Part shown: in pieces, positions 27,146 to 60,099 of the stretch
Layout of the letters: every line of letters begins with the position of its first letter
Position numbering within the stretch: position 1 is the stretch's first letter
NCBI GenBank assembly: GCA_014904845.1
Contig: MU119267.1
Coordinates: 65,672 to 129,671 of the forward strand
Length of the DNA stretch: 64,000 nucleotides
Source of the DNA: Acephala macrosclerotiorum
Lineage: Eukaryota; Ascomycota; Leotiomycetes; Helotiales; Mollisiaceae
Direction: 5' to 3'
Program-made: the position numbers and the translations under genes
Notes under the pieces: model-generated
The model's input: the letters and a program-made list of their open reading frames with translations, nothing else
Told to the model about the DNA's origin: nothing
Database searches by the model: none

Positions 27146-27155
27146 NNNNNNNNNN
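27146..27155. other. Assembly gap (10 N)
   Basis: Ten Ns sit exactly between the two copies of the 1964-bp duplication. This indicates a scaffold join of two contigs whose ends overlap but were not merged. Confidence 0.95.
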
Positions 27156-40008: not shown

Positions 40009-41347
40009 TTGATGGCAAACAATAGAATTGGACTGCCCTACGGCTTGGCTCTCGGTGCTATCGGCTACCCGCTGTACGGCGCCGGCCTCTACACCAACAA
40101 CACCCACCCTACGACTTGGTTCCTACTCTTTGGTAGTGGTGCTCTATGCGGCATCTCGGCTGGATTCTTCTGGGCTGCCGAAGCCGCCATCATTATCGGC
40201 TACCCGAGTCCAAAAGAGAGAGCTTTTTACCTTGCCATCTAGCAGACTGCGAAGGCATCAGGCCCAATCGTTGGAGGTGCTATCAACCTGGGCCTTAACG
40301 CGAATCGGTCAACGGCTAGATCTGTCGGAAGCGCGACATACATTGTCTTTATTGTCATCGTGTGCCTCGGCCTTCCGATCGCCCTGTTCGGGAGCCCAGC
40401 CAAGAAGGTCTGGTGCAAAGACCATACCCGGGTCATCATTCACAAGGAGCCGAACTGGACAGCCGAGTTCAAGGCTGTATGGACCCAGCTCAGCTCTCGC
40501 CGCATTCTGCTGCTGCTTCCTGCCTTCTTCATCTCTTACTTCTACAACGGCTACAACAGCACCTTCTTGACCGACTACTTTACTGTCAGATCACGTGCTT
40601 TCTCCTCCTTCTTGACCAACTTCTCCGGCATCTTCAGTTCCTTCCTAATTGCGGCCCTGTTGGATCGCCAGTCCATCAGAATCACGACTCGAGCAAAGAT
40701 CGGCTTTTCTTGCGTCATCACTGTGCTTATCGGGACCTGGATCTGGGCTTCGATTCTCTTGAAGCAATTTCAGGCCGATCCACCCGTCTTTGATTGGTTC
40801 ACGGGCGGCTTTGGAAAGGCCTATGCACTGGTTTTCTTTTGGGGCTTTGGAGGGCAGGCTTTCCAGCAGTTCTTGTACTGTATGTAACATTCTGCCCTTT
40901 ATCTAACGATATTTTCAGAGCAGAGCTCTTCGCGAGCAGGGCGAACACGGCTCAGCTCCTCGACTCCCAAATCACACTCCAAATCTCGTACTGATTTATC
41001 TACAGGGCTTGTGGGTCAGTATGCTGCGGATCTGTCGTCGCTGTCTCGCGTAACTGGCACCTTGCGTGGATTCGAGGCTCTTGGTCAGACCGTTGCTTGG
41101 GCGTACGTTACCCCCCATATTTTCGTCACAAAAGGATTCGAGACTGACATTTCACAGCATGCAAACTGCTCCCAACGCGAATGGATTCGCTAGCATCGGC
41201 GTCAACTTCGGCATGGCGATTCTCTGCATCTTTCCTACCTGGATCGTGCTCTCTGAACTCGATCATACTCATGAGGTTCAAGACGTTCGGGACTTGAGTG
41301 TGGAGGAAGATTCTGGGGCTACGAAAGAGGGAGCTGATAGCAATTGA
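40009..41347 (+). pseudogene. UNC93-like (DUF895/MFS) membrane transporter, truncated pseudogene
   Basis: Spliced translation gives a polytopic membrane protein of the fungal UNC93-like major-facilitator family. Segments include GLALGAIGYPLYGAGLY, ASGPIVGGAINLGLN, RRILLLLPAFFISYFYNGYNS, FQQFLYW and a final helix FGMAILCIFPTWIVLSEL, followed by an acidic tail. Two introns interrupt it: 40880-41005 (the introner-like element) and 41103-41157 (55 bp, branch-like ACTGAC). Both joins keep the frame. It is broken in two ways. The first ~60 residues (initial helices) are missing, because homology starts abruptly after the purine tract. A TAG at 40240-40242 also stands before QTAKASG where the family has Trp, a G-to-A change of RIP type. 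The gene abuts the AT-rich block. Confidence 0.75.
40880..41005 (+). other. Introner-like intron, copy 1 (126 bp)
   Basis: The intron has donor GTATGT, branch-like TACTGAT and acceptor TTTATCTACAG. Removing it joins TAC T|GG to give LYWLVGQ in the transporter frame. The whole 126 bp is about 92% identical (ten differences, no indels by eye) to the intron at 59519-59644 in an unrelated gene on the other strand. Internally it has GC-rich complementary segments (GAGCTCTTCGC/GGGCGAA) able to fold. Confidence 0.9.
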
Positions 41348-42706
41348 GGTTCACGTGTTGAGATATTATAAGATGTTGTTTACATTGAGAAGATCTGGAT
41401 ACCCAAAGCCCTTCGGTAGATGGGACAATGAAAGTGCATATTCCAAATTTTCCGGCGGCGAATGGTGCCTCGATTTTCGGGCAAGTTCTCCTTCTTCATT
41501 TCAAGGCCATGGCACAGGTGAACGTCACTGAGTCGGACCCGACTGTGACAGTACAGACGAGCGATTTGGAATGGGTATTCTCGCCACTGCGTCTAGAGCG
41601 TCAAGCCTTGTCGCTACTTTCTACACTCCTGGACTCAGAGGAATGGAGTGGGATTAGGAGTTTGGGGACATGACTTTGTTATCATTTGGCGTCATCCGCG
41701 AGTGCGTGTTTACGGTTGGTGGATCCTCTAATTGCATGTCAGTTCTTCTGCTCCATTGTAACTCAATCGACGACATCCGTACCTTGGAATACCTTAACAA
41801 CTGTGAAGAATAGTAGTGACAACAACAACAGAGGCAGCACCTATCTAAAGGCGTATTTATTGTCGTCCCCAACTGCCTACTTCCTATCGTCCAATAACCT
41901 GGCGACGCCCATACCCCACATTGCCGCCAGCAGAGCCCCTGGCCAGGTTACAGAAGGTGTCGATATCTGGAGATCACCTACCTGTTCGGAACGTTGGACA
42001 ATTCCGTTGATTCATGCGTAGATGGTCTCCAGATATCGACACCTTCTGTAATCTTCTCTCCGTTCGCTTGACTCGCTCGTTTTCTCGTCAGGCGCAAATG
42101 TCGCCGGCCTACCAGGACAGTCTCGGGGCGTCATCATCGGAGAAGTGGTGCGACTTAGGTGCCGTCTCTTCGTTTCAACGTTTCTGAGGAGACTGGAAGT
42201 TCAACCCATTAAAACAGAACCATTGACGAAGAAATTGCATGGAGTTCTCGAGGAGCACACGGCTCTGAAATGGGCTCACTTAAGCCCCTTTTCACCTGGA
42301 CGCTTCAGTATTAATAGGGAGAATATATACATCCTTTATAACGAAGGCTTACGATAAGCCGTGAAAGTGTTACCGTGCCAGCCTGTCCGGTTCAAAGCCC
42401 GGCAATCTTAAGCAAATACAATTACATTTGGCCACACCAGGGAAGTATATTCTCCTAGCAACTGAAAGGTTGGGAAAACGATGTATCCATACCTTTGGCA
42501 AGCACCGGAGTCATTGAAGCCCAGAATATGGGGAAAAGAGGCGCGGGCTAGGGCAAAATACCGAGGCCCTCCTTTCCAATCAATACTTTATACAAAATAG
42601 ATCCACGCCCGGTCTCAATACTAGAATCTCTAAAGTCAAAAGTGAGGAAGCGCTCCCTTGAGGAATTGTCTGGCATTTTCAAAGAATATAATCTAGAAGA
42701 GCGATT
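41348..42706. other. GC-normal stretch without a supported gene
   Basis: A possible 81-codon ORF at 41428-41673 and others up to 111 codons are open but match no family I know. A short segment at about 42090-42140 reads ANVAGLPGQSRGVIIGE on the plus strand and could be a gene fragment. A 26-bp inverted repeat lies at 41948-42051. I see no intact gene. Confidence 0.45.
41948..42051. repeat. Perfect 26-bp inverted repeat with 52-nt loop
   Basis: Bases 41948-41973 are the exact reverse complement of 42026-42051. The arms contain the internal hexamer GATATC. RNA or single-stranded DNA from here would form a long stem. No target duplication is obvious. Confidence 0.9.
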
Positions 42707-43474
42707 ATGATCTCTTTGGGTCTATTGGTATGGATGGGCCTCGCGTCCCAAGCTTGGGCTGCAGGCTTCCGAGTATGCCTGCTCTAGCAAGCAATGTCAG
42801 TTATCTGGAGAATGATGCGACCACAGATACCAAGACGGTGTTCTGAGCCGGCCTATCACTATCGACTTCAATCGCAGCCTTTACGATACCACTGAGTGAG
42901 TCATGTCTACGGAGCTATCAGCGGCTACGAACAAAAAACCATATGTTATTCATACACGAATGCTCTTCACCGACGATAGGATCACGACCATTCAATCGGC
43001 TGTCACTACAACGAGTGATTGGGCCTTCAATGTAACTGGGCAACTTTACTAGAATAAACGAGAAGTGTGGGATACTATTCCGGAAGCCAAACGGGACACG
43101 CACGCTGTCATAAAGGCAGCAGGTGATGCATACCTCGATAGCTGGGGAGACGGGACAGTCAAGGCCCCATACGGCGCTCCATGTGCAAGGCTCGAAGGTG
43201 GCTCATATACAGCAGGGAAGGGCTTGACGACAAACACTTGCAAAATGCCTCAGTTCCCACAGCCGTTTAAGATCACGAATAGAAGATATGTTATTGATGA
43301 GGAGTTGGAGGGGTGGATATCTTTAACGACTTTCCGTTCGTTGAGAAAACGAAACCTGATGGCACGCCTAGTACGAATTTCATTAGGGTTGAGGGAGAGA
43401 TGATTAGATATATTCGCGAGGTTACTAAGTGTGCGACGAAAGAATTATGGAAGATGATCGTCACCTTACTGTGA
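42707..43474 (+). pseudogene. Secreted DUF8021-like protein, pseudogene
   Basis: The ATG at 42707 starts a typical signal peptide (MISLGLLVWMGLASQAWA). The remainder matches the fungal secreted family annotated as DUF8021. Visible blocks include NVSYLEND, ITIDFNRSLYDTTE, KKPYVIHTRMLFTDD, DWAFNVTGQLY, DTIPEAKRDTHAVIKAAGDA, PCARLEGGSYT, NRRYVIDEELEGVDIFND and NFIRVEG. It is dead: there are in-frame stops after the signal region (42788-42790), in KTVF-stop, in TTE-stop, and TAG at 43049-43051 where the family has Trp, plus frameshifts near 42800, 42845 and 43315. Several stops are RIP-type transitions. The gene sits 79 bp from a retrotransposon. Confidence 0.65.
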
Positions 43475-43552
43475 GAGAAATAATGTTCTCTGTGTGATGG
43501 AATTTGATTCAGCATATATATTATAGCTCGCTTGAGACTTGATGATTGTGCT

Positions 43553-43687
43553 TGTCAATTTGAGTGATATATTCGATGGATTTGATGGTCTGGTTGATTG
43601 ATTTAGGTTGAAAGATCTAGTTAGGTGCGGGGACATTATATCCATTGTAGTGTTTACTCAGCACTAAAACTACTCGAAAGTTTAATA
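43553..43687 (-). repeat. 3' LTR of the minus-strand copia-like element
   Basis: It is 135 bp and collinear with 48843-48977. The differences are mostly transitions. Confidence 0.85.
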
Positions 43688-46600
43688 CGCTTCCTACAGA
43701 GAAGTACTGTAGAGATATATCCATTCCAATGTTCAAAGTAATGTAAATAATCAATATCTTCACGTGACCATTGCACTAACTATTATTATGATTTATCGTC
43801 CTTTATCTCTTATCAATTGCAGCGTCGAATCGTCGTAAAGAGTCTCATTAAACTCTGTGGCGCTAGTCTCAACCGCTTCGTAAAAAAAACTTATAGAGAA
43901 CTAAAAAAAGTCTACTCTTTTTATAAAAATTCGATCCTAAATAAAGCATTTCCAACTTTTATTCCATAGTCAAAAAATACTTCAAATCTACTCAAAAAAG
44001 CCTTCGTCTTATTCCAATTCGTTCTCTTATTACTATTGTTTTAATCCTTGAAATCCGTAAACAGCGCTACAATTTTCTTTGTATCAAACCAATTTTCATT
44101 CAAATTTATTGTAATTTTGTAAATCGTAAACTAATTGTAAAATATTTATTTTGTAAAAATATTTACGATTTAATCGTTCTTTGAAATTGATTTTACTTTC
44201 AATTTATTTCTAGTAATTATATCGTTTTTTATATAGAAATATCAAATTTTAATATACTTAAATTTATTCGAGAATTTCGTATTCGTATTAAAATCGATTG
44301 TAAAAAAATTATTACAATATAAAATAAAAAGTTTTTTAAGGGGTTTTTTAATAATTTTCGATTATAGTTTTTTTAATTAAATTACTTTTTTTGCGATTTT
44401 ATTTACTATTATAATTTTTATTTTTATCGAGTTTTGTATTATATTTCGTTATTTTTGTACTATTTATAAAATTATTTTATTTTTTAGTATTATTATTTAT
44501 TTTAAAAACGATTTGCGATCGTTTTCAATTTTTTATATAAAATCGAAAAATATATTGTAATTTTTAATCGACGTTTTTTTGTAAATAATTTTTATCGTTT
44601 TCGTTTTATTGAAATATCGAAAAAATTATTTCGCAAAATGCAAATATTCGAAATACGCGTTAAATATAAATCTAATAAATTAATTAACGTGATAATTGAT
44701 ATTTAATTTCGTGCAATTAATTAAATAAATCGTAATATTAATAATTTATTTATTGAAATAAAAATCGTTTTCGTTTAATCAGTTTTTTTTTTTCTTTTTC
44801 TCATAAAATTATATTTTACGAGAATAGTAAATTCGTTTAATTCGAATATTCGAAATCGAATCGTAATAATAATTTGTTTGTATACATTTTTTAATAAATT
44901 GTAAAAATATAATTCTCGTAATTTCTTTCAATTTAAAATTCTACGAAAACGATAATAAAATTAAAATTTTTGTTTTTTTAACGTTTTTTGATTTTAGTTT
45001 TAATAACGTTCGTATTTACTTTATTTTCAATAATTAGTATATTATTAACAAATAAAAAAATATAAATTTTTTCTTTTATAAAAAGATTAAAATTAATTTT
45101 AAATACAATAAATTTCAATTTTTTGAAATATTATTTGATTTTATTGAATTATACTCAAAAAATAAACATTTCTATTTTTGAGTAAAAAATAAACATTTCT
45201 ATTTTTGAATTCAAAGTAAAATTTATAAAAGAATTCAAAGATTTTTATATAAATTTTCTCTTTAAAAAGAAAGTTCAAAAACATTAAATTTATATCAATA
45301 TAATTTATCATTAAATTATATTTTGTAATAAGTATTAAAAGTATTCGTAGAATTATATATTTTATAACAAAAATAAACGTTTCAAAGTAATTAATACTAT
45401 AAATTTACTCGAATCTTTTGATAACAATTTTAGTTTTACGTCGAATTAATTTATTACGAGTATTGATTTTTTTTTTTAATATTTATTTGCTTAAAATAAT
45501 TTTTTTATTATTTTGTAATTTTCTTGTAATAATTTTATAAGTATTTGTTTTTTGAAGAATTTCGAGTTTAATAACGATTACTATTATTTAATTAAAAGCG
45601 TTTTTTTTTTAAAGTTTTATTAACGATTAAAAATTCGAATAAAATATTAAATACATTTAAAGAAAATAATTTCTTTTCGTTCAAATAAATAGCGTTTAAA
45701 GTTTTTATTAATTGTTTTACTATTTAAAAAAAAAGCATTTTTTTATTGTTTTTTTCGTTTTAATAAGAGAATTATAAGAATTTTTGATTTTTTTAATCGT
45801 TCGATCGTTGATTTTTGATATTTGAAATAAATATTACTTTTGAGTTTAATTAGAATTCTAAATACTAAAATTTGATTCGATTACTAATTTTGAATTTGTT
45901 TTAATTTTAATTTTGTAAATACTTATTTCAATATTATCAATTATCTCATTATTAGAAAAGCGATCAATTGAAATATTAATAACGATATAATTATATATTA
46001 TATTATTAGTAATAAACAAATTTATTACAATGTATTTAAACTCTTAAAAAATAAAAAACTTTAAAAACTTATATTTATAGAATTTAATATCAATTGAAAA
46101 AATCTTTTTCAATATTCTACAATTTAATAATTTGTAAATATTGTTTTTAGTAATATCTACGAAAATATACTTTTTTTTGATTTTAAAAGTTTATTTGTTT
46201 AATTAGTCTTTAAATTTTTTAATATTGATTTAATATTCAAAAACAATTAAAATTTTCTACAATATTAAAAAATCGAATTTCTTTTCAATATAAACTTCAA
46301 ATAAAATACATATTTTTTAATTCTTTGATTCAAATTTTAAAATTGATCATAGAAATACGTTTATTAATACTCTATTTTTAATTCAAATTGTATACTTTAC
46401 GATATAATCTTAAAAAATCAATAAAAATTTGATTTCGTAGATTATAAATTTAGCGATATTGTCTATTGTTTGTATTACTCGTTTAATAATACTATTTAAT
46501 AAGTATTTATATAGTAAATAAAATTTATATTTAAAAGAATTAAATAATATTTTAAATTATTTTTAGAAATCTTTTTTGAACTCGCTCGATTTATTATTAC

Positions 46601-48549
46601 ATTTAAAATAAACAATATTTTCTTTTGTATCTCTTTTAATAATTCTATAGATTTCTCGAATATAAAATTAGATTTTTTTCGCATTTTTATCTTTCAAAAA
46701 TCTAATCTAAAAATATCTCATTATATCGTTCGTAATTATAAAAAAAATATTAATTCTCTCTATAAAACTTGAACAATTTACTAGAAATATTATTATACAA
46801 TTTTTTTCTCTTTCTAGTAATTCTATTATTTGTTTTCTTTTTAAAAGTTTCTTTGATTTTACTCGTTATACAAATTTTACATATTTTATATTCAATATAT
46901 AGTCTAAATCTCAGTATTTTTATATTTGTAATATCGACTAATTTTCGAAGTACATTATAATTAATATAATCAAAATATCAATATATAAATTCTCACAAAA
47001 TTTTCTTAGAATTTACTATTTTAAAAAATTCTATTAATAATCGAATTCTCATCGATACATTCGAAATAATATTCGTCGAATATATAACAATATTATTAAT
47101 ATTTTAATATTGATTTAATATAAAAAAATTATTTTTAGAATTTTTAAAAACTATAAATATTACTTTTTTATTTTTATTATTTGTAATACTAATTATTTAT
47201 TTTCTTTTGAATATAATTATTATTTTATTTTCTATAAATTGTAAAATAAAAATCAATTTCATTACTTCAAAACTTAATACATATTAAACTTTTTTAAATC
47301 TCAATTTTTTTTAAAAAATTATTCAAATTTGATTTTAATATTTAATCGCGTTTACAATAGTATTATTTGCTATAACAATTTAATTTAATATTTATCAACG
47401 TTTTAAATATATGAAATCAAATTATATACTATTAAAGTATTTCGAAATACTAAAATCTAAAGTAAATAATAGAATTTAAACTCATTCAATCAATACTCGA
47501 AATAATAAAAATAATAAAAATAAAAATTGTTTTTTATTAATATAAACTTTTATTTATTGAAAATAATAAATAGAGTTTTTATATAAGTATTCAATATATT
47601 TTTTAATTTTATTTTTGAATAATAATCGAATAAATATTATTATTACTAATAAAAATACTATAAATACGATAAAATAAACAAAAAAAAGAAATTCTATTGT
47701 ATTTTGCTTATAATTACTATATTTACTCTAATAATAAATTCAATTATTGTAATTTTTGTTTGTTTAAAAAAATTTTGATTTTGTTTTCTATTAATTTTTT
47801 TATTTTTTCGTTTTATTTTATATTTAATTTTATAATATTCATAGTATATATACTAATTATATTAATTTAAATTAAACTTATTATAATTAACGAGTTTTTC
47901 GTTATTACTATTATTATTTTAACGATCTTTAGATTTTGTAAAACGAAATACTAATAATTCAAATCTTTTACGATTATTTTTTTTTTTTTTTTACAATATT
48001 CATTATTATTATTATTGCGATTATCGCGATTAATCTTTCGTTTTTTATTTCTAGTTTATTTACTACTACGAAATTGTTTACGATTATACTATTGTTTTTT
48101 TCTACGAATATAATTTGCAATTACTAAGATTTTTTTCTTATTATAAACTTGCAATATAATAATCGCTTTATCGAGTATATATTCGACTTTTGACAAACGA
48201 AAAATATAATATTTCGTACTTTCGTAATTATTGTTTTTAAAAATAATTACTATAATTCGATTTAAAATCTTATTATTAGTAATTAGTCTTTCGATCGTTA
48301 CGAATTGAAATTTGTAAAACTCGAGACGATTTGCGAATTTTTTGATTTTTTTAGAAATCTCGAATTTTTTTTGTTTAAAGTTCGTTTGTTAAATAAATAT
48401 TTAAATAAGATTAACGGTTTATTGTATTTCTTGAGTTCATTTTAAATTCTTTTCATATTTTCGAAAAAAACTAGTAGAAAAATCTTGTTTTATAGTCTAT
48501 CGTTTACACTATTTGAAATGATTTGAATAGTTTTAATAATCTTCTTTTC

Positions 48550-48825
48550 TTAGATCGTAATTCGATCGATTAACGTAAAAAGAACTAGTTTCAATTCTTT
48601 ACTATTAATTAGTTTTATGGCATAAATACTAATAAAAGCGACTAGATAAAAGTTTTTGAATCGAGAATAGTTATCCTTTGTAAGAATTTCAATTTTACTC
48701 CACTTACAAACGTAGTAAAATGCTGTAGAAATAGGTGCTATAGTACCGATTAAAGCTGCTAAAGTCGCCATAGTGAATAGGATTGATATTTTAGAATAAA
48801 AAAATACGACGGTTTCAATAAGCAC
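48550..48825 (-). pseudogene. Gag N-terminal remnant of the copia-like element
   Basis: A 91-codon open frame starts 17 bp inside the 5' LTR. It has a hydrophobic N-terminus and the motif KWSKIEILTKDNYSRFKN. Continuation below 48550 is still alignable to Gag style (KIIKTIQIISNSVNDRL) but carries stops. Confidence 0.5.
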
Positions 48826-48842
48826 TTTCCGGGTTTATAACC

Positions 48843-48977
48843 TGTCAATTTAAATAATATATTCGATAGACTTGATAGTTTGGTTGATTGATTTAGGTTG
48901 AAAGATCTAGCTAAGTGCGAAGACATTATATCTATTGCAGTACTTACTCAGCACTAAAACCACTCGAAAGTCTAACA
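48843..48977 (-). repeat. 5' LTR of the minus-strand copia-like element
   Basis: On the coding strand it runs TGTTAGACTTTCGAG to AATTGACA (TG...CA ends) and is followed at once by the primer-binding-like site. Confidence 0.85.
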
Positions 48978-49742
48978 GTACTGAAGTCGGACATTCAAGA
49001 CCAAGAAACGAGAATTATAGACTGCTTGTAATCAGAATATCTTTAGCAAAGAGTCAGCAGGTATTATTATGTGAAAGTTATGCAAACTATGCAACTACGC
49101 ATGCATCTATTCAATTTCCCCAACCCCCCTGTTCTTATCATTGAATATATTCTGACTTCCATTGCCTTCGCTCCATCTCCACCTGCTGACGTTATAGCTC
49201 TATCTGTACTCGTTATTGCTCTCTCCTTCGATAATACTGGTGAGAAGCTTCTTGTATAAGGATCAGAAATTTTATAATATGAAGGTCACGCTAGAGATAT
49301 TACATAGATATAGATATATGTCCTGTCCTTAAGACCTTCTTAATTCATTCCAGTTTCCCCAGAGTGACCCCATATTTCCTTAGCTTTCTATAATTCCCAA
49401 CCTCCCATCCCAGTCCATAGGAGGCCTGTCATCTCTGTTGACGTACGCTTGCAGTTTCTCCTCCCTTACCTTTTCTCGAAACTGAAAATGGTTACATGAA
49501 TACGATACGCTGCAGACAGAGCTAGAACTCACACAAAGCCTGAGCCCTGCGTCGCGGCAGGGGTCGATATGGTGGCTACTATGGCTGCATTTGAAGTGTG
49601 TGGTTTGCATATAGCACGTTGTTTCTCGGATAGAGTTTTCTGTTTTAAGTTGATGAAATTTTACCGGTGATTTACAATTAGTATATTGAGTCATATCCAA
49701 AGGGTAGTGGTTGGAAGAAGTTTCCTTGATTGGGAATGTTCC
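48978..49742. other. Intergenic, no supported gene
   Basis: Base composition is normal. Small ORFs on both strands lack any recognisable motif. The segment 49260-49740 is presumably the 3' flank of the minus-strand gene that ends at 49743. Confidence 0.5.
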
Positions 49743-50744
49743 TCAATTATTGTGATAAAAATTTGCGCTCTCCTCATCCACCTCTCTGAAAGCATGCTTT
49801 TGGATAGCGTGTCGGTAGAGATACCACCGATAGCACGCAAATATCAATATTAAAAATGCACCAGCCTCGAACACCAATGTTTTTTCGAAGCTGATAGTCC
49901 AGCGCGACTCAAATGAGTACCTTATGATAAGACCTCCGAAGAAAACTACAGGTATACAAAGAAGTATTCGAGAATTCGTCTTATTCCCGTTGTTGTGTGT
50001 CTTTTCGGTCTTCTCAAACATGTGCGTAAAGACCTGAAGGTCAACCTTGGCTCGAGGTACGAACTCTATGTTGTCCCATGCAGGTTTAGAAGTAGGTATA
50101 TATTTCGCGTAGTCTATGTTGGTGCCAAGACCGTACTCGATTTGATCGACCTCTGGGGTGGCATATCTGAAAATGTTCATGCCTGAATACGAAACTTCTT
50201 GACTAACAAGACGTCAGTTTTGCGTCTTACATTGGGTGTGAGAAGACATTTACTCGGCCCTAAGTTTCGAAGCCCAGTTGATCTGGTTGGTTGTCCCTTC
50301 AATGTACTTCTCAATGCTCTTTAGAACAGCTCTCTCCACATCTCTGAGCTCTGGAAGTCCGCTCCCGATAACTCTCCTCTTTCTAGGATATGGCGACTTG
50401 AGTTCGAGCATGTTGTGGAAGTGTGCCTTGCGAGTGCCACGAAAAGTAATCTTCTTGCCATTTAGGAGGTCGCAAAGTGTTGCGAATCGCTTTGGCAGAA
50501 AGCCATTGCATTCTTCAATCATGTCATAGAGGATTCCTTTCAAGCCTTGGTCTTCATGATTCTCAGCTGGCTTTGATTGATATACCTCGTTGAGTTGTGC
50601 ATCGAGAGCCTGGACTTGTCGTGTCAGGGACCAAACCTCTCGTCTCGAAGATCGAGTGGTAAGCAATGTTGTGATAACTTCCTTGAAGTTGTCCGAGTCT
50701 GCGAGATTCTTTTGAACATTGCCTGTAGGGTGGAGAGGCAACAT
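49743..50744 (-). CDS. Hypothetical two-exon protein with two C-terminal membrane helices
   Basis: Two open frames join through an 87-bp intron (50167-50253; donor GTAAATG, CTGAC-like branch, acceptor TTTTCAG). This gives a 304-residue product whose summed exon length is divisible by three. The N-terminal half is helical with a possible coiled coil (VWSLTRQVQALDAQLNEVY). The C-terminal third has two hydrophobic segments, ILLCIPVVFFGGLIIRY and VFEAGAFLILIFACY. The layout (cytosolic helical domain, then two short C-terminal helices) resembles fungal DUF6594-type proteins, but no diagnostic motif was seen. The true start may lie upstream: the frame is open for 12 codons above the chosen ATG. A GCGGGG site lies at 50815-50820. 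Confidence 0.55.
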
Positions 50745-51025
50745 GATGATGTTCTCAAGTTGAGTGAGATTTGCCTTTCATCTCGTAGAAGGAGGCGGCA
50801 CTGAGATTATCAGGGCGGGGGAGAATGTTGCAGAAGTTTGCTATCTAGCCGTTGATTCAGTCAATTGTGCTACATTCTCTTCTGTCTTGGCTCATGGCAA
50901 ACACCTCTAGCTCCAACCCACCCGATCTCTGCCGAAGCAAACCAAGGTCCACACGAACACCGTTCTAGGACTCAAATCTCCTGAGCGCATAATATTCTGT
51001 GTCACACCGAGTCCAAGTACTGTCT
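50745..51025. other. Intergenic spacer
   Basis: No gene is visible. It probably carries the promoter of the minus-strand gene ending at 49743. Confidence 0.5.
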
Positions 51026-51768
51026 TCATGCATTCACCTTCATCTTTTCAAGTAGAAAGTCCTCAGTCTTCACCCAGCGCGGCTTTACATAGATTTCAAC
51101 TGTAGGTAACTTGAAGCCAGCGAAAGGATTGACAGCTCCAACTTCTTCCCAAGGATAGCCAAAGCGGTCTTCAAATGAGCTCAGATGTGTCTCCACTCTT
51201 GAAGACACATATCCCTATTCCTGTTTCTCCCAGAATTGTGGAACAGTAACGAGGACTCTGCTGACGGTAAGACCAGAAGATAAAACATCGCCTAAATGGA
51301 AGTCTTTAATCCTGCCTTCTCGTAATGAAGCATGCAGCGACTGTGGTAGAAGCGGCTCGTGACAGTTTGAATGTTGTACCCAGGGTTCGGAAACTCCACC
51401 ATGCAACATGCTGTAGTACGGTTTGCTAGTCGGTGCTCTCTCAGATATAGAACATCTGATTCTGAATTATAGGGCATGGGGTACTAGCAAAGGTTGCCTA
51501 GGCTTGAAGGTTGAACTGGTGAGGCAAGGAAGATAGAACGGGACTCGGAGCAAGTGAATGAAAGAATTAAGGGATCCGCATTTGCCGTGGCAAAATCTTG
51601 TTGTCCTTCATAGCGGAGCTTAATGATCCAACAATTTGAGAACGCATGTTGCCAGATCTGGAGCCGTGGCTCTGTCGAGAGCGTGCTGAATGAGGTAAAG
51701 GTCTCTGATGTTAAGCATGGCGTCGAGCCTGAGGGCAGACTTTGAGGAGAGGGATCCTGGTTAAACAT
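51026..51768 (-). pseudogene. 2EXR-type domain protein, broken
   Basis: The frame from the ATG at 51768 contains FTSFSTLSTEPRLQIWQHA and, further on, CSESRSIFLAS. These correspond to the FxxFxxLPxELRxxIWxxAL and CxESR elements of the fungal 2EXR family. The reading frame is interrupted by a TAG at about 51484, then a frameshift near 51310 (between MLHYEKAGL and KDFHLGDVL), and another TAG at about 51215. The final block ends MKVNA-stop. Introns cannot fully explain both stops, so I call it a pseudogene. An annotation with several tiny introns is the alternative. Confidence 0.5.
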
Positions 51769-51989
51769 AGATGTTGTCCTGTTGGCGAAAATCCGGAATT
51801 GGAGAGCTTGAGACTTAGATGCGATGTCAGAATAGGGAACGAGGGTGCTTTTCAAGGTAACTTCTTGGGGTAAGAGTCTCCATACACAAAAGAAATTCAT
51901 CAAAACGCTTCTATGTGACCCAAAGCTATAAGAACAAAGGTTTTCACTCAACTCAAGCGAGCGGAGAAGGCACCAGCTCCTATTCGCCC

Positions 51990-53178
51990 TCATTTCCGCA
52001 CACTTTCATTCAACCACTTATAAACAACCCTAGCATCTTTCCCCTTATACCTTTCATCGCTTCTCGCCTCCGCGAACGCCTGCAGTGTCGGTCCATCCAG
52101 AATGGTCCTCGCACCCACGTCCTTCGCTAACTCGCTCCCCATTTTCAGTACCTTCTCACAAAGCTCAATCCTAAATCCTCCTTCATAGTCCCTACTACTC
52201 GGAACGTCCTCCTGCACTCCAGGCACAGGATTACTCTTACTCGTGACCCAACACTGCCCACCAGAAACATTGATAACATCCGTCAACAACTTTAAATCCA
52301 ACCCCATCTTCGCTCCAATATTCAGTGCTTCGGAAGCTGCGAGGCTCGTAATCGCGCTCAAATAATTATTGATAACCTTGAACGCCGTCCCCGCACCAAC
52401 ATCTCCACAATGAAACACCGAATCTTCCTTACCCATATACTTCAATACCCCCTTAACCTGCTCAAACGTCCCTTTCTCCCCCGCACCAACCATAAACGTC
52501 AAGCTTCCATCCTGCGCCCCCATCGGGCCCCCACTAACCGGTGCATCAACAAATGTCAAAACAGGTTCACTCCTCACAAACTCATCATGCTCTTGTTTCC
52601 TGCTGGAAGAAGTAGGGGATGAAGGAGAGCCGGAGGCAGCATCGGCGACGGAGAGAATGGTGGCGGTTTCGATGGTGCCACATTCCATGAGGATTTTGTG
52701 GCGGGGGAAGGTGGATGTGGAGAGGGAGAGGGCGGTGGGGATTAGGCCGGTGTGGGGGTCGAGGTAGACGGCTTTGACGGCGGGAGAGTTAGGTAGCATA
52801 GTTATTATCATATTCTGGGAAATTTTATTTAGTTTTACTTTCTCTTAATATTTTGGATCGAAAAGAGGAGGAGGCGAGAGAAAAAGGGAGACGAACAGCT
52901 CTCTTGACTGCCTCTGATCCATTCTCCACCACCTCAATTGGTCCTTGACCCCCCATCTCCTTTTGAAACTTCGCAATGGCGTCTTTGTTCACGTCGCAGA
53001 TGAGAAGTGTGTATTCAGAGCTCAATCCCTTCCGCAGATTTACTGCCATTGGGTAGCCCATCACCCCCAGGCCTATTCGCACCCATCAGCCCCACTCCCA
53101 ATCTTCCCAAATCATAACAAGACACATACCAATAAACGCAAAAGTCTTCGCAGGATCCGCCATATTTTCAGTAGCCAT
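51990..53178 (-). CDS. NAD-dependent beta-hydroxyacid dehydrogenase (3-hydroxyisobutyrate type), paralogue 1
   Basis: Three exons (53130-53178, 52897-53072, 51990-52814) total 1050 nt and give 349 residues. Introns are 57 bp (53073-53129) and 82 bp (52815-52896). The first intron splits the Rossmann loop, which on splicing reads FIGLGVMGYPMAVNL. The substrate signature DAPVSGGPMGAQDG and the catalytic-lysine helix FKVINNYLSAITSLAASEAL are intact. The family oxidises 3-hydroxy acids (3-hydroxyisobutyrate, tartronate semialdehyde and similar) with NAD(P). A Ser/Thr-rich insertion (about residues 125-145) is unusual. A second paralogue lies at 60323-61344 and shares the position of the second intron. 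The upstream region holds two CCCCGC sites (53367, 53399). Exact substrate unknown. Confidence 0.9.
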
Positions 53179-53366
53179 TCTCAAAAGATCTGCGATATTC
53201 CGATGGGATATAACTCTCTTAGCGGATAAAATATGCTGCAAAACACGTTATTGCTCTAGTGCTCATGATCTGACTTCAGATGAGTTTAGGCACATGAAAT
53301 GTAAACAACACGAGATGATCGATCCACGTTGGAGAACGTGGAGTTTGAACGTGTTGCGTGCAGGTA

Positions 53367-53404
53367 CCCCGCACTGCGATGGTGGAGTGTTATTCCCTCC
53401 CCGC
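53367..53404. promoter_or_regulatory. Two CCCCGC(A) sites upstream of dehydrogenase 1
   Basis: CCCCGCA occurs at 53367-53373 and 53399-53405, 190-225 bp upstream of the ATG at 53178. They match the GNGGGG half-site predicted for the cluster's C2H2 regulator and also the CreA/Mig1 consensus SYGGRG. Confidence 0.5.
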
Positions 53405-53548
53405 ATCTGGAAACCGCCACCTCCTCTTGTCGGCATGGTGTTCCGACTTGGCGTTCCTGGAGTGGAAGGCCTCAAGAAGTAATCCGAGAATAATGGTCGT
53501 GTGCTTTGAATCTGGTGGCGAAATACTTTCCTCAATTTTGAGATGTTT

Positions 53549-54544
53549 TTACGGATGTCCTGGCAAAAACCTATCCCTATTCCTCTCACTCCACCCTTTG
53601 TCATGTGCAACCACGACCTCGACTTCCATACCTCCACCACCTTCCTGTACCACTTTGCCACTCTTCAGCAATCCCCCAATCCTCGAAATAGTTCCCTTCG
53701 CGGCATCGGTATCCAAATGCACACTTCTTAGCCCTCCATGCCCATCATCGTACATCGCTACATCGCATTCTCCTGTCAGAATTCGAACATCGTGACAACA
53801 ATCTCCTCCTAGATAGACCCATTTCGAAGATGATATTCTAGCCAACAAATTGACATGTCCGATGAGATGACCAGGACTGTCTACTATGTAGACGCTACCA
53901 TCGCCGAAGAAGTCTACTACGGCAGGAAAATCTGCGAGAGGTTTCCATATATGATCCGTTTGTTGCTTCGCAGCTTTCTCGGAATCCGATGTACTTGAAG
54001 GCGGAAGTTCGTAGGTACGATCAAAAGGTAGTTCGTCATGATTAAAGAGCTCAGCCGGGTATAGAAGTCCTGCGCCATTCGCAAGTAGATGCAAAGTCCC
54101 AGATCCAACTACAAATCTCGAGTTTGGAAAATCGCCCGGCGTCCCAACATGATCCCAATGTACGTGACTGAGAATCACATTATCGATATCTTTCTCAGGA
54201 TCGACCCCTCCTGCTAGCAGACTCGCAGCTGCATCTGGAGAACTGACTGTAGGCTGGCGTTGTGAGGCGTGGTGTTGTTGCGCTGTCCTGTATTTTGTGA
54301 AATCGCGTTTGAGACTGAGGTCGAAAACGAGGTTTGTTGAACGACTTGGGAGGTTCTTCGAGGAAGAAGGATGCCGAATAATGAAGGCGAGGGAAGGAAC
54401 CGTTGTTCGCTTCTCGGGTGCAGCGTTGGTGATGAAGAGGTGTTCTGGAAGAGTCAACCAGCCTGCATCCAGCGCTGAGATGGTCACATATATTTGATCC
54501 TCAGCCGGAGCCGGAAGGGTCAAGACTTGAGATGTCTTCGTCAT
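53549..54544 (-). CDS. Lactonase-type metallo-beta-lactamase-fold hydrolase, paralogue 1
   Basis: The single-exon product is 331 residues from the ATG at 54544, chosen because it matches the start of paralogue 2; an in-frame ATG at 54631 would add 29 residues. The metal motif HVHWDH (H127, H129, D131, H132) is followed by PGHLIGHVN, the bridging-Asp region GGDCCHD and a late AHDKGW. This is the ligand order of AiiA-like N-acyl homoserine lactonases and related dinuclear zinc lactonases. It likely opens a lactone ring in the cytosol; no signal peptide is seen. It shares a 327-bp divergent promoter with the alcohol dehydrogenase at 54872. The substrate is not evident, and a lactam or ester is also possible. 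Confidence 0.88.
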   Translation of the reverse strand: MTKTSQVLTLPAPAEDQIYVTISALDAGWLTLPEHLFITNAAPEKRTTVPSLAFIIRHPSSSKNLPSRSTNLVFDLSLKRDFTKYRTAQQHHASQRQPTVSSPDAAASLLAGGVDPEKDIDNVILSHVHWDHVGTPGDFPNSRFVVGSGTLHLLANGAGLLYPAELFNHDELPFDRTYELPPSSTSDSEKAAKQQTDHIWKPLADFPAVVDFFGDGSVYIVDSPGHLIGHVNLLARISSSKWVYLGGDCCHDVRILTGECDVAMYDDGHGGLRSVHLDTDAAKGTISRIGGLLKSGKVVQEGGGGMEVEVVVAHDKGWSERNRDRFLPGHP

Positions 54545-54705
54545 TCCGATTGATATTGACAGCTTGTAGCATCTCGAGATCAGCCACCATCTCAGAATGT
54601 GAAGTCCAAGTTCATTGTGATGCTGCCCCACCTCCCATTGGAGAAGGTTTGGGGGAATGCCGATGGCCGACTCGGTGCAGGCTGGAGCGAGGGTTTAACA
54701 TGCTA

Positions 54706-54718
54706 CCCCGCAGCGGGG
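54706..54718. promoter_or_regulatory. Palindromic CCCCGC-A-GCGGGG site in a divergent promoter
   Basis: The perfect inverted pair CCCCGCAGCGGGG sits 162 bp from the lactonase ATG and 154 bp from the dehydrogenase ATG, almost at the centre of their shared promoter. Two regulator molecules could bind head to head. Confidence 0.6.
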
Positions 54719-54871
54719 CTGGAACAACACGCACGCCACCCGAAGCCGTTGAACTACATTTGAAATGCTGATCGTGGTCTGAGCATGAGCTATTCCACCA
54801 CTAGAAGCCTTCTTCAGATTAGCATCATCAATTTGTCCAAGACGTTGTCCAAATACTATTTATTTTCAAAC

Positions 54872-55996
54872 ATGGCGTCCTCAACTCTAGCTCTCCCAAA
54901 GCTCATGAAAGCGCAGTTCCTGGACGACTTCAAAAAGCCTTATGAGCTTCGCTCTGCGCCTCTACCGAGCTTGAGCTCACCCCACGATCTCCTGATCAAA
55001 GTCGACGCGGCATCGTACTGCCATACCGACGCCGTCCTAGCCGATGGTCTCATGCCACCATATCCACCTTCATTCCCACATGTTGGCTGTCATGAATTCG
55101 CGGGTACAATCGTAGCTCTGCCATCCGGCGGATTATCGGACTCTTCGTTGAAGATTGGCGACAGGGTCGGAGTACCGGGACGAGGTTTCCATCCTTGCGA
55201 GTCATGCTTCGAGTGCTTGAGTTACCATGATTCGGAAAGCGATCCACCAGGCTTCTCAGTTTATTGTCCAAAAGCTAAGAATCGTGGAATAAGTGCTGAT
55301 GGAGGATTCCAAGAATACGCAGTCGTCGACGAGAGACAGATTGCTCGAATACCAGAAAAGCTCAACGCGGTTGAAACAGCACCTCTGATGTGTGCAGGCG
55401 TTACGATCTATGCTGCGATCAAGAGATGCGGGTTGACACCAGGCCAGAGACTCGGCATTTTGGGCGCAGGGGGCGGCCTAGGGCATCTGGGACTGCAATT
55501 TGTGACGAAGATGGGCTTCAAAACATATGGCATGGACAACTCTGAGGCTGCTTTGGAATTGGCGCGAGGGCTCAAGACTGGTGCAAGAATTGTTGACGTC
55601 AGAACAGAAGAGGCAGATGAGGTCGTCCAGCAAATAGGGAAAGAGGATGGAAAGGTAGTACGAGGAGAAATGGGACTGGATGCAGTGATCATCTTGCCCG
55701 AGAGTCAAAAGGCCTTTGACTATGGAGTCGGCCTACTGCGCAATCATGGCAAATGTGTCGTTGTGTCGTTCCCAGACAAAGGCTTCCATTTCTCGGCGCA
55801 TGCTGTGGTATTCCGAGACATCTCGATCATCGGCAGCTTGGTTGGTAGCAATAAGACTCTGAACGAGATGCTGCAATTCGCAGCCAAGCACAACGTGAGG
55901 GCGATTGTGAAAAAGTACCCGCTTTCCAAATTGAACGAACTTGTCGAGGAGTACCACAAGGGAGGTGGAGGAAAGCTGGTGATCGATATGGCCTAA
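54872..55996 (+). CDS. Zinc-dependent medium-chain alcohol dehydrogenase
   Basis: The 374-residue intronless protein starts at the ATG at 54872, giving MASSTLALPKLMKAQFLDDF; an upstream in-frame ATG at 54785 would add an unlikely 29-residue leader. The N-terminal GroES-like domain has the catalytic zinc region SYCHTD and the GCHEFAG motif, with Cys where most members have Gly before His-Glu. The structural zinc site is C-E-S-C-F-E-C followed by YCPKAKN. The cofactor loop is GILGAGGGLGHLG. The family oxidises primary alcohols or reduces aldehydes with NAD. It is divergent from the lactonase gene and converges on the regulator gene 96 bp downstream. Within the cluster it could act on an alcohol or aldehyde released after ring opening. 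Confidence 0.92.
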   Translation: MASSTLALPKLMKAQFLDDFKKPYELRSAPLPSLSSPHDLLIKVDAASYCHTDAVLADGLMPPYPPSFPHVGCHEFAGTIVALPSGGLSDSSLKIGDRVGVPGRGFHPCESCFECLSYHDSESDPPGFSVYCPKAKNRGISADGGFQEYAVVDERQIARIPEKLNAVETAPLMCAGVTIYAAIKRCGLTPGQRLGILGAGGGLGHLGLQFVTKMGFKTYGMDNSEAALELARGLKTGARIVDVRTEEADEVVQQIGKEDGKVVRGEMGLDAVIILPESQKAFDYGVGLLRNHGKCVVVSFPDKGFHFSAHAVVFRDISIIGSLVGSNKTLNEMLQFAAKHNVRAIVKKYPLSKLNELVEEYHKGGGGKLVIDMA

Positions 55997-56092
55997 TATA
56001 TGAATGCAACATCCAGATACTGCTGAATGAGTGTGTTGGTGATAACTATGGAGTGCCCAATTTGATTGTGGTTCGAGATTAAAAGATGTCGA

Positions 56093-58786
56093 TCAGTTAG
56101 GCTCCAACATATCAGCGTAGATGTTCAATGAGCTGCCAATAACATCTACTATCGCCCATGTCTGAGCTCCCTTGAAAATTGTAGCCCAGACTCGAAGGAC
56201 GCCCGCACTCAACCACTTTCTGGTCGCAGGTGAGTCAAGTGGCATGTCAGAAGGCACTGCGAATTCGGTCTCATCCAGCATCGTCTTCACGAGCGAAGTA
56301 ATCCGCCGCTCGTCATCTGTGATTGGTGGGTCCGGATCGGGCTGTGAAAGTGCCTCCAGCCATTTACTCAGCAAGAAAGCACATTCCAGGGAGCAGAGCG
56401 AGTGCTGAATGGACCAAATGAAGGTCTGTGTTTTTGCCACGAGACGTACTCCGATTTTGACAGGGACACTCAGAGCATGAGCTGAATGTAGGACAGCGCG
56501 AACTAGCTTCGGTGTCCGTCTGATAGCTGGACTTTCACGAAAAGCATTTGCGATCTGTACCGGATCACGTGTGTCCAAGGCTCGACCGGGACCGGTATCC
56601 ACGTTGAGTCGGATGTAGGCTAGTCGGAGGAGAGCAGTTGAATTGAAGGCGACAGGACCATTCGGATCTGCTGGGTCGAGAGATGACTCGGGGTTGCGCT
56701 TCCATCCAACCTGCCAGTTCCGCAAAGCATGCTCAAGTGACGAGACTTCCTCTGATTTGAGGTTGGGTCCATCATAACGACATTTTGCGATCTGGCGAAC
56801 GAAGAAGATGTGTTGTATGAGGGCGTGGATCAGAACATAATTTCCCAGAGATGAGTTGAAGCCGGTCTTATCCTTTCCGCTTCGCGAGAACAGGCGTCGT
56901 AGAGCCTCTTGAAATTCCAGTATCTCAGGGCCATTTTGTTTGGCCTCACGCCACGCTTCTTTAGACTGCGCCTTGAATTCTGCTGCGCTCGAAGGTAGAG
57001 AGAGCTTGATTTCTGAGTTAAGGATGAGTGGTGGAATGTTGTATACAATGCAGTGTAGATTAAAGAAGCAGAAAACTATGAGCTTAGTTCTCTTATTGAT
57101 CTCGATACGCGCCCACTCTTCCCACGAGACGTCTTCAGGGGCTGGTTGGCTTTTGAGGCCGTCGTCTCGGATGAGCGTGGCGAGGATGCTCTGGATTGCT
57201 AGTGCCTCGCGAAGAATCTCCTTGTGCTTGGCCCATGTTGCCATCGCCATCAAAATGAGCAATGCTTGGGCGGTCTGTATCAAGTCCTCTTGTTCCGAAG
57301 TGGCGGATGCCTCAGTCTCCGAAGGCAAACCTAGAGGGCCAGAATTGGACGAGCCTATTGGAGGTGTGTCCGCATTTGAAGAGCTATCCGCTCCTCGTGA
57401 CAACGTAGAGAATTCTGATTCCGCTCTTCGATGAAAGCTCACCAACCTGGCATCTCTTCGTCGAATTCTCTGCACTGCGATCGCTTGGCTAACGTTGAAT
57501 AATTCAACACCTTTCTCTCCCTCAAAGCAATATTGGGCACCGACAGCAGCCATTCCCAAGACTAGTTCAACTGCACAACCTTGAATTGTCATAGTCGGTA
57601 AATGAATCAGCGGGAGATGCTCATGGAACCCGTTCACGTACGCTGCGATGTAGCGACACAATGCTAGGCGAGTAGGCAGTTGGAAGTCTTCTGGTAACAC
57701 AGAAGTAAATTCTTCCAGTTTGGTTGAGATGTTCTGTCTGTCATCAGACGAAACCTCGTAGAAGGGACGCGATTGTGTTGTTTGATGCTCTGGGCGAGAC
57801 CGAGGTTCTTCTGGCTGCAGTGATGGAAGGCGTGACCCAAAGCGAGAGAACGAGTTGGAGTCCTCAATATGTTGATTATGTTGCCTGGACCCAGGAGCCG
57901 CCTGGGTTTCATTGTGCGCTAGGAAATCATTCGCATAGTTGAAGGATTCTGGAGAGAAGAACGGAAGCTGTTCAGCACTCGTCAATGACGAGAAGTGATA
58001 GGATGACAGAGGTTCGTTGTCCAGGAAAGCAGCAAGACTGTCAAGAGATTCCTCAAGTCCAAGTCCCTGCATGTGACCTGTGTTCTGCAATGCCAAAGGA
58101 TCCGAGAGTATTTCGATCTGGTCGTTCTGGGTGTGCAACGATTGGTAATGCGAGGCATTGTGGTCAGGTGCAGGCGGAGTGAGAAATGAGTTGTGCAAAC
58201 TACTGTATTCGGCGGCCATTGACAAAGCAGCGAGAGAGTATTCATCACTCTGGTTTGCAATCATCGAGGAAACGAAAGTCGGATTAGTCGATGAGGATGT
58301 GTGCCGCATGCTCTGCGGGGTCAACCCAGTCGTTCCGTTGTTGCTGTCCATCCCATACGGAGCAATTGCTGCTCTCCTCTTGTTGGGTCTTGATTGAGAA
58401 GTGCCATCTTCATCTTTATCGTGTTCATTTCGTTGAGCAACGGATGAAGTCTCTCTATTGTGAGTGAGCCTCTCGTGGCGAATGAGCAGATCACTGGGAA
58501 GTCAGCAAGCCCTATCAAGGTTCTCGTTTCAGATGCGATACCTCCGGGTGAAGTGATGACCACATAGCCGACATCCGAAAGGCTTTTCTTGGGTGTCTTC
58601 AAGCAAGCATAGAAATCAGCATTGCGACAGCAGCGAGTAACATGAGGGCTCACGGATTCTTTCGTGACGTTGCAAGTGCTCTAATCGTGCAAAGCGTCGC
58701 TGGCAATGCTTGCACAAGAATCTCTTGGGCTTCTTCACACTTGCAGGAGCTGTTCCTTCCGTGGTGGTTTCTGCAGCGTCAAGCAT
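56093..58786 (-). CDS. C2H2 zinc-finger plus fungal-specific transcription factor, likely cluster regulator
   Basis: Three exons (58654-58786, 58542-58596, 56093-58493) sum to 2589 nt, 862 residues, with introns of 57 bp (58597-58653) and 48 bp (58494-58541). Spliced, the N-terminus has two fingers: C25/C28/H41/H45 with helix RLEHLQR, and C53/C56/H69/H74 with helix RSDLLIR, joined by the linker HTQEKP. A basic PNKRRAA segment follows. The C-terminal half (from about residue 310) is a fungal_trans-type helical domain. Finger helices resemble Mig1 and predict recognition of GNGGGG. Its own promoter has GCGGGG at 58997 and 59007, so autoregulation is likely. The intron boundaries cut both finger modules, and predictions that start at the ATG at 58351 lose the whole DNA-binding domain. 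Confidence 0.9.
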
Positions 58787-59433
58787 ATGAAGAACGAGGA
58801 CGCGACGCGTCGTCGGACATTAGGGAAAGAATGTAATTGGCCAATTCCGGTGCAGTTCCAATTTATGATACAAGCGGTATTAGAGATGTGTTTTTTTCTT
58901 GTTTCCTCGGGGTCAGAATAGCTGGTGTTGGAGATTGATCATAGACGTCCTTCTGTTGTTGAAGTTTCGAGGTTGGGAGGAAAGGAAGGAAAGAAAGCGG
59001 GGAAGTGCGGGGGACTTGGCCCGCACGGTTGTTATTTCCAAGTTGGGCTCATCAGGTTTTGAATTTCCTGTTTTATTATCTTGATGCTGTCATTTCATCT
59101 CAGATCCATTCAATCAAGCGTATTGCTTGAGAATGTCTTGTAAAGCTCTTCTGGGGGAGATGAACGAAAGCTGGATACGAGTACGAGCAATGTAATTATA
59201 GCCGAGGTAAGAGGTGCACAAGGTTTACAAGGGTTGAAGCAAACAAAAACGGCTTCGAAAGAAGGAAGTTGATATTCTCTGGGAAGTTTGATCGTCTAGA
59301 GGCGTGAAATATAATTTCGAAGAGATATATTCATTCTGAAGTGTCACAAAAACTCTCGTCGAGGTTCCTTAGAGTGCGCTTCTTACCAACCAGTATTTAG
59401 GATGCATGAATCCTCTGAACAGTCGTCGTACTC
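58787..59433. other. Promoter and spacer of the regulator gene
   Basis: The 647 bp hold no gene. Two GCGGGG sites (58997, 59007) lie 211-221 bp upstream of the regulator ATG. The region after 59100 is the 3' flank of the CMD gene. Confidence 0.6.
58997..59013. promoter_or_regulatory. Tandem GCGGGG sites upstream of the regulator
   Basis: GCGGGG occurs at 58997-59002 and 59007-59012 in the same orientation, 10 bp apart (one helical turn). This fits cooperative or autoregulatory binding. Confidence 0.55.
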
Positions 59434-60099
59434 CTATGCCTTTGCATCCTTACTCCCAAGCTCTCTCGCATGCTCCCCCTTCTCCGCCATATCATTCAAC
59501 ACCTTCTCCGCCGTTTTCCTGTAGATAAATCAATACGAGATTTAGAGTATGATTTGGGAGTCGAGGAGCTGAGCCGAGTTCGCCCTGCTCGCGAAGAGCT
59601 CGGCTTTGAAAATATTGTCAAATAAAGGGCAAAATGTTACATACATAGCATCTACACCCGCCAGAACCCCACAATAAGTCGTAGCATGTATAATCGCCTC
59701 CCTAATCTCCAACTCACTCAACCCATTGTTCCTCGCGCCCCTAATATGGACCGCCAATTCTGGAGCTCGATTCAAAGCCATCAGCATGCCGATATTGATC
59801 AGACTTCGTTGCTTCTTGTCCAAGCCAGGCCGTGTCCATGCGTATCCCCAGCAGAATTCCGTGACGAGTTCTTGGCCTGCGCGGGAAAATTCGGTATTAC
59901 CGTTGGCGAGCGCTCGGTCGACGTATTCGTCGCCAACAGAGCGGCGCATTTTGAGGCCTTCGTCGAAGAGTTGTTTGTGAAGGGCATCAAATTTTGGGTC
60001 TTGAGACATTTTGGAGGTATAAAAGTGGATGTTTCGAGAAGAAATCCGAGATATTGGAGATTGTTGGGATTTAGTTTGACTGAAAAGGATCGATCTCAA
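59434..60099 (-). CDS. Carboxymuconolactone-decarboxylase-family protein (single domain)
   Basis: Exon 1 (59645-60099) and exon 2 (59434-59518) flank the 126-bp introner-like intron. Splicing joins DAM|KTAEKVLND in frame and gives 179 residues from the ATG at 60099, or 149 from the ATG at 60009, the more usual CMD length. The longer form adds a Ser/Arg-rich leader that could be a mitochondrial targeting peptide. Conserved CMD features are WTRPGLDKKQRSL, LNRAPELAVHIRGARNNG and EIREAIIHATTYCGVLAG. 4-Carboxymuconolactone decarboxylases remove CO2 from a lactone in the protocatechuate branch; the AhpD-like relatives do redox chemistry but need CxxC, absent here. One CCCCGC site lies at 60203. Confidence 0.88.
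59519..59644 (-). other. Introner-like intron, copy 2 (126 bp)
   Basis: On the minus strand it runs GTATGTAACATT to TTTATCTACAG with branch-like ATTGAT. It is the same length as, and about 92% identical to, the intron at 40880-41005 in the UNC93-like gene. Six or seven of the ten differences are transitions. The host exons of the two genes are unrelated. Confidence 0.9.

Follow-up and report, generated by a model that had tools for sequence, protein, structure and literature searches.

Evidence for a multiplying spliceosomal intron in the genome of Acephala macrosclerotiorum

The origin of new introns is a long-standing question, and the introners of fungi are the main case said to be without a DNA-transposon signature (PMC9860276). 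The introner-like elements (ILEs) of Dothideomycetes (Fulvia fulva, Dothistroma and Zymoseptoria; via PMC4457414) are near-identical spliceosomal introns in unrelated genes, which form several families within one species, are long for fungi and decay later. Earlier ILEs favour AG/GY sites (PMC8469720). The sister stwintrons and cropped introns of Hypoxylaceae and Xylariaceae (PMC8469720, PMC12403724) are inserted seamlessly, in the coding strand only and without duplication, and contain internal inverted repeats. In PMC9860276 the ascomycete introner families represent an outlier with neither terminal inverted repeats nor target-site duplications. Here, two introns are described in a window of 64,000 nucleotides from Acephala macrosclerotiorum (C66:65672-129671), which are very probably copies of a multiplying spliceosomal intron and thus ILEs.

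A literature search for introners in Leotiomycetes or Helotiales found none, and a prior listing of this genome, for example in the supplement of PMC9860276, is possible. In the parts available, PMC3510045 concerns two dothideomycetes and PMC11889510 names no introner for Leotiomycetes. The family in Acephala adds a host from a fungal class without introners in the literature found. An earlier note on this DNA had compared the two introns with the ILEs of Dothideomycetes; the type of element was recognised correctly, but the host belongs to the Leotiomycetes (Helotiales, Mollisiaceae).

The two copies and their family in the genome

The two copies reside on opposite strands, one in a gene for an UNC93-like transporter and one in a 4-carboxymuconolactone decarboxylase-like (CMD) gene. 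Their putative features are:

40880..41005, plus strand: ILE copy 1 of subfamily A1, a spliceosomal intron of 126 bp; it interrupts the UNC93-like transporter in phase 1, within a conserved Trp codon (flank T|G)
40918..40953, plus strand: central GC-rich palindromic core of copy 1, of the type GAGCCGAG..CTCGGCTC
40990..40995, plus strand: branch-site-like ACTGAT of copy 1, close to the acceptor; a small hairpin, AAATC-N7-GATTT (40981-40997), overlaps it
59519..59644, minus strand: ILE copy 2 of subfamily A1, a spliceosomal intron of 126 bp; it interrupts the CMD gene in phase 2, within a conserved Met codon (flank AT|G)
59571..59606, minus strand: central GC-rich palindromic core of copy 2
59529..59534, minus strand: branch-site-like ATTGAT of copy 2

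The copies can be aligned without gaps over 126 bp with ten differences (92.1% identity), and the donor GTATGTAACATT and the acceptor TTTATCTACAG have the same letters in both. The exact 12-mer of the donor occurs twice in the whole window, namely in these two copies, and in the output of a repeat finder they appear as an inverted pair, 128 nt long and 92% identical. With copy 1 as query against the whole genome (69,661,192 bases in 778 contigs), copy 2 scores an E-value of 7.2e-46. The exons around the two copies share scattered matches at most, and the likeness of the introns is far beyond chance. Coordinates, strands and lengths given in the earlier note are hereby confirmed, as are the identical splice sites, the estimate of about ten differences without indels and the lack of relationship between the flanking exons. 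ACTGAT and ATTGAT are presumed to be the branch sites from their resemblance to the branch-site consensus.

Related copies are found throughout the genome. DNA searches with copy 1 and with subfamily B returned 81 and 80 candidates, 40 of which were scored in each case; every scored match to copy 1 has an E-value of at most 1.3e-18. A search for a 21-base core, allowing at most 3 mismatches, gave 97 places (45 + 52), in comparison to none for the reversed-pattern control. Ten of these places fall into a repeat of another kind: six of them were read (L091 to L093), three lie beside hits of this repeat and one, on contig C50, was assigned by its matched letters alone. From the remaining 87 places 56 copies were read, which, together with one copy whose core carries 4 mismatches, gives the 57 copies counted here. 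Four additional copies (L029, L032, L088 and L090) were excluded from all counts because their core is altered.

Both ends were located by script in 55 of the 57 counted copies, and these 55 parsed copies fall into subfamilies A1 (18), A2 (4) and B (33), with a length of mostly 126 nt in subfamily A and 129 nt in subfamily B. Both splice sites are likewise kept in 55 of the 57: L011 has lost the acceptor AG, and in L039, one of the parsed copies, CT replaces the donor GT, so that both are apparently decaying, whereas in L046 the acceptor is present and was overlooked by the script. Nearly all counted relatives, like the window copies, possess their own donor, acceptor and branch-site-like motif. 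The GC-rich palindrome is kept throughout the family. The earlier note had regarded GC-rich complementary segments as a possible structural hallmark. Thermodynamic folds of copies 1 and 2 are not unusually stable (z of -0.78 and -1.31), the consensus fold is weak (-3.19 kcal/mol, 2 covarying pairs) and the core lacks covariation.

In the tree of the family, copies 1 and 2 are sisters (support 100/97) at a distance of 18.6 kb, which suggests either a linked event or a coincidence. Judged from sequence identity, the window pair with 92% is not the youngest, since other pairs reach 99%, the highest value being 99.2% within subfamily B. The sister status and spacing of this pair are compatible with the proposed recent or local spread. 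Among the counted copies two pairs lie within less than 50 kb, one being the window sisters; the other (L005/L037) combines different subfamilies, so that local spread as a general process is not supported.

Splicing and insertion sites

After splicing, the CMD gene encodes a protein that agrees in full with P0001, a public Acephala macrosclerotiorum protein of 149 amino acids, meaning that the public gene model splices copy 2. For copy 1, the protein P0121 is identical to the window transporter over 87% of the query and runs continuously across the ILE and the neighbouring 55-bp intron. P0121 carries the source tag lgn, which we take to denote assembled public reads. A genomic contig would break the frame, so that the continuity of P0121 is expected if the ILE is spliced. 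Both splices consequently keep the frame, as had been claimed before.

In the genome-wide set, phase and frame of each copy were taken as those of the longest stop-free run. After splicing this run has a mean length of 227 codons (n = 55), whereas the reverse strand gives 90 and shifted deletions of the same length nearby give 138; 37 of the 55 copies exceed all 50 of their shifted controls. At least 20 codons on each side remain open in 52 of 55 spliced copies and in 23 of 55 on the reverse strand; this criterion alone is weak, since 1704 of 2750 shifted deletions (62%) pass it as well. Stop codons in every frame are present within 49 of the 55 elements. Pfam scans, which covered the element's own strand, place a domain over the junction in 31 of 55 copies; the crossing is marginal on one side, by few residues, in L002, L003 and L031, and the match of L006 lies under Pfam's own cut-off. 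The Pfam families of these domain-confirmed hosts are diverse. Thus, sense orientation within genes is supported by a domain in 31 of 55 copies, the other 24 being undecided, and transcription was seen for one host.

Insertion leaves the coding sequence intact. In six genes picked for having solved homologues (L007, L014, L028, L030, L043 and L057; two or three alignments shown per gene) the junction is gapless in 6/6, which indicates that no residue was gained or lost. The Met codon split by copy 2 is kept in 7/7 relatives (8 shown of 376 matches, one being the window's own protein) and the Trp codon split by copy 1 in 8/8 relatives (9 shown of 338 matches, including P0121), so that in both genes the codon predates the insertion and nothing was added. 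Moreover, the transporter paralogues on contigs C62 and C668 and the CMD paralogue on C102 are not interrupted at the ILE position; these empty sites are paralogues within the same genome, not orthologues. The CMD paralogue (G000:C102:70685-71065) breaks near residue 99, probably due to an intron of its own.

A target-site duplication, looked for as a same-register repeat across the two junctions of a copy, was not found (154 of 300 permutations reach the observed match). One of 39 combinations of shift and set, subfamily A at shift -6, was reached by 0/300 permutations, which among 39 is taken as chance. Short duplications (AG, AGT) were excluded by reasoning on the frame arithmetic of the flanks.

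The target motif depends on the subfamily, being T|G for A1, C|AYGG for A2 and CA|T for B. In A1 (n = 18) position -1 is T in 13 and +1 is G in 15 copies; in A2 (n = 4) -1 is C in 4, +1 is A in 3, and +3 and +4 are G in 4; in B (n = 33) -2 is C in 26, -1 is A in 31 and +1 is T in 21. AG|G is found at 0/55 sites, and G at -1 in 2/55. Over the whole set, flank similarity tracks ILE similarity (0/2000 permutations; 234/2000 for distant flank positions), while no such association is found within A (360/2000) or within B (1554/2000), pointing to an effect between subfamilies. Phase 0 is rarer than the motif predicts (2/55; one among the 31 domain-confirmed copies), with 2/22 in A (motif-based expectation 0.40, P = 0.0015) and 0/33 in B (expectation 0.19, P = 0.0008). 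Three distant MFS transporter genes (L013, L016 and L018) carry an ILE at one conserved Trp codon within a WRW.FY motif. Their proteins share 34% identity over 146 residues (L013/L018) or 42-44% over short stretches of 24-27 residues (the other two pairs), whereas the ILEs are 79-80% identical and non-sisters in the tree; this is best read as parallel, sequence-guided insertion.

Several observations speak against the assignment of these elements as a family of multiplying introns, or against parts of it. Eighteen of the 55 copies fail to exceed all shifted controls, and in four (L002, L004, L009 and L023) the reverse strand has the longer run. No Pfam match was obtained for 20 of 55 copies and a match elsewhere for 4 of 55, so that an intergenic or antisense minority is conceivable. 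Read-based evidence of splicing comes from one copy, that in the transporter, through the lgn tag of P0121. The protein search for L043 listed no identical read-assembled protein, which neither supports nor opposes splicing there. Furthermore, 31 of the 87 core places lie outside the copy count and are unclassified. A motif dependent on the subfamily is an unexpected choice for a generic spliceosome, and the similarity of the ILE core (positions 33-59) to either end of an inverted-repeat element of 1-1.3 kb, weighed below, points in the direction of DNA.

The alternative that the segments are an ordinary repeat, or introns common by descent to duplicated genes, is very improbable. The shared Trp position in the three MFS genes would suit it, but the host Pfam families are diverse, and the MFS proteins share 34% and, over short stretches, 42-44% identity, while their ILEs are 79-80% identical and not sisters. 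With regard to the refuting conditions named in the earlier note, 31 of 55 copies are confirmed by domains to be within genes, the read-assembled coding sequence of one host is free of the element, and the hosts of the two window copies are unrelated genes. In combination with frame and domain continuity on the same strand and with the evidence of splicing, this upholds the designation as ILEs.

Possible routes of origin

For the multiplication of the ILEs, RNA-linked insertion by reverse splicing into DNA, perhaps at R-loops, is considered the likeliest route, with about an even chance of being correct. After excision, the intron, either in its RNA form or copied into DNA, would enter the coding strand of a gene under transcription without leaving a scar, the position being set by a short, subfamily-specific motif. 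The new copy would do little harm because it is spliced out, and might later decay as ordinary introns do. The choice of target goes with the intron subfamily, a pattern not expected from a spliceosomal mechanism of a purely generic kind.

A possible, though clearly less favoured, alternative is that a DNA transposon with ends that happen to serve as splice sites gave rise to the ILEs as miniature forms, which move as DNA and in which the inverted ends have decayed. A candidate relative is present in the genome. At C56:239400-240750 (L091), C228:87500-89000 (L092) and C101:157950-159550 (L093) lies a non-coding repeat that measures about 1-1.3 kb. Its inverted ends are imperfect, its interior holds TCTGCTCGAGGTTTGG-like units in tandem, and inspection by eye shows no evident target-site duplication; a 261-base probe of this repeat finds six genomic places. 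In L091, 25 of 27 bases match between ILE positions 33-59 and positions 34-60 from the terminus of the repeat. At the six repeat ends, shuffles reach the score of consA in 0/1000 for any end and that of consB in 0 to 4/1000. When the ILE 3' end is reverse-complemented and anchored at the repeat's left end, it surpasses all 262 intron-like control ends in the case of L091 and of L093, and 257 of the 262 in the case of L092, but this test was picked after viewing the alignment, and the three copies of the repeat are related to one another. With the same reservation as to the choice of the left terminus, both ILE ends resemble the left end of the element.

On the other side, the right ends of the repeat are a poor fit to the anchored 3' end (for consA, 57 to 852 of 5000 shuffles), the match to the element does not extend to the outer 32 bases of the ILE, the two ILE halves show no significant symmetry and no clear inverted ends, and target-site duplication is absent in the permutation test of the parsed copies. 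The best local hit to other sequence (337 kb, non-ILE) reaches 32.6 bits, compared to 38.3 and 35.4 bits for the repeat. As background comes within 3-6 bits, the local match alone is just modestly above it. Common ancestry of the ILE core and the inverted-repeat element is nevertheless likely, and a DNA-transposon origin possible; the match does not fix the direction of descent. More speculatively, and still less probably, these ascomycete introners might derive from an inverted-repeat DNA element resident in the genome, the termini of which became donor, branch site and acceptor, with motifs proper to each subfamily and duplication-free insertion into the coding strand. If so, fungal introners would no longer be an RNA-only outlier. 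In any case, a resident DNA repeat with matching ends provides a testable candidate for an ancestor.

Rolling-circle insertion of the Helitron type, which occurs between A and T without duplication, appears improbable. Subfamily B would comply with it, having A before the element in 31/33 and T after it in 21/33 copies, no duplication, and a small hairpin near the ILE 3' end. Helitrons are characterised by 5'-TC..CTRR-3' ends and by insertion between A and T. The ILEs end in GT..AG instead, and subfamily A mostly inserts at T|G; among the titles listed in a literature search on Helitrons and intron gain, none was on point. Hardly credible is a model in which each ILE brings along three bases of exon, CA..T or AT..G, so that the gene gains a codon. 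It was drawn from the flanks and the phase bias and would account for conserved flanks as well as for the scarcity of phase 0, but it is refuted by the six ungapped alignments, and the split Met and Trp codons, kept in 7/7 and 8/8 relatives, contradict it too.

Host genes in the window and relation to known systems

The two hosts comprise the following further features:

59645..60009, minus strand: CMD exon 1
59434..59518, minus strand: CMD exon 2, including the stop codon
40240..40242, plus strand: in-frame TAG of the transporter, Trp in 8/8 relatives shown
40243..40879, plus strand: UNC93-like transporter remnant, coding part from the in-frame TAG to the ILE
41006..41102, plus strand: transporter exon 3' of the ILE
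41103..41157, plus strand: second transporter intron, an ordinary one of 55 bp and no ILE

The transporter had been considered a pseudogene, in agreement with this in-frame TAG at a position where all relatives shown carry Trp. No frame matching its N-terminus was found from 39950 to the first recognisable residues, the sequence further upstream not being examined, and the gene, as read from its sequence, seems to lack this part. The broken transporter adjoins a very AT-rich block: positions 1-40000 are mostly AT-rich, with GC contents down to 3.5% in 2-kb windows and long degenerate inverted and direct repeats, possibly representing transposons mutated by repeat-induced point mutation. Within this block (26248-28467) two identical 246-bp copies lie 1974 bp apart, probably as part of a longer direct duplication.

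Compared with the described systems, the Acephala ILEs resemble the introners of DNA-transposon type in algae and other protists (PMC9860276) in being introns that multiply and in their possible link to an inverted-repeat element, but they differ in having neither target-site duplications nor clear inverted ends. With the stwintrons of Hypoxylaceae and Xylariaceae they share seamless, duplication-free insertion in the coding strand and internal inverted repeats. Stwintrons, however, are nested introns with a split donor, or introns cropped from these, with apparently random targets and no phase bias (PMC8469720, PMC12403724), whereas each Acephala ILE is a single intron, and the family has a clear target motif and is seldom inserted in phase 0. 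The AG/GY preference of earlier ILEs, a reported tendency and not a defining property, is not shared either, AG|G being absent and the motif varying with the subfamily. In general organisation there is a likeness to the Dothideomycetes ILEs (PMC4457414), which also are long, near-identical introns in unrelated genes, form several families and decay after insertion; the cf, ds and mg families of that class were compared by description, not by sequence, and the host in the present case is a member of the Leotiomycetes.

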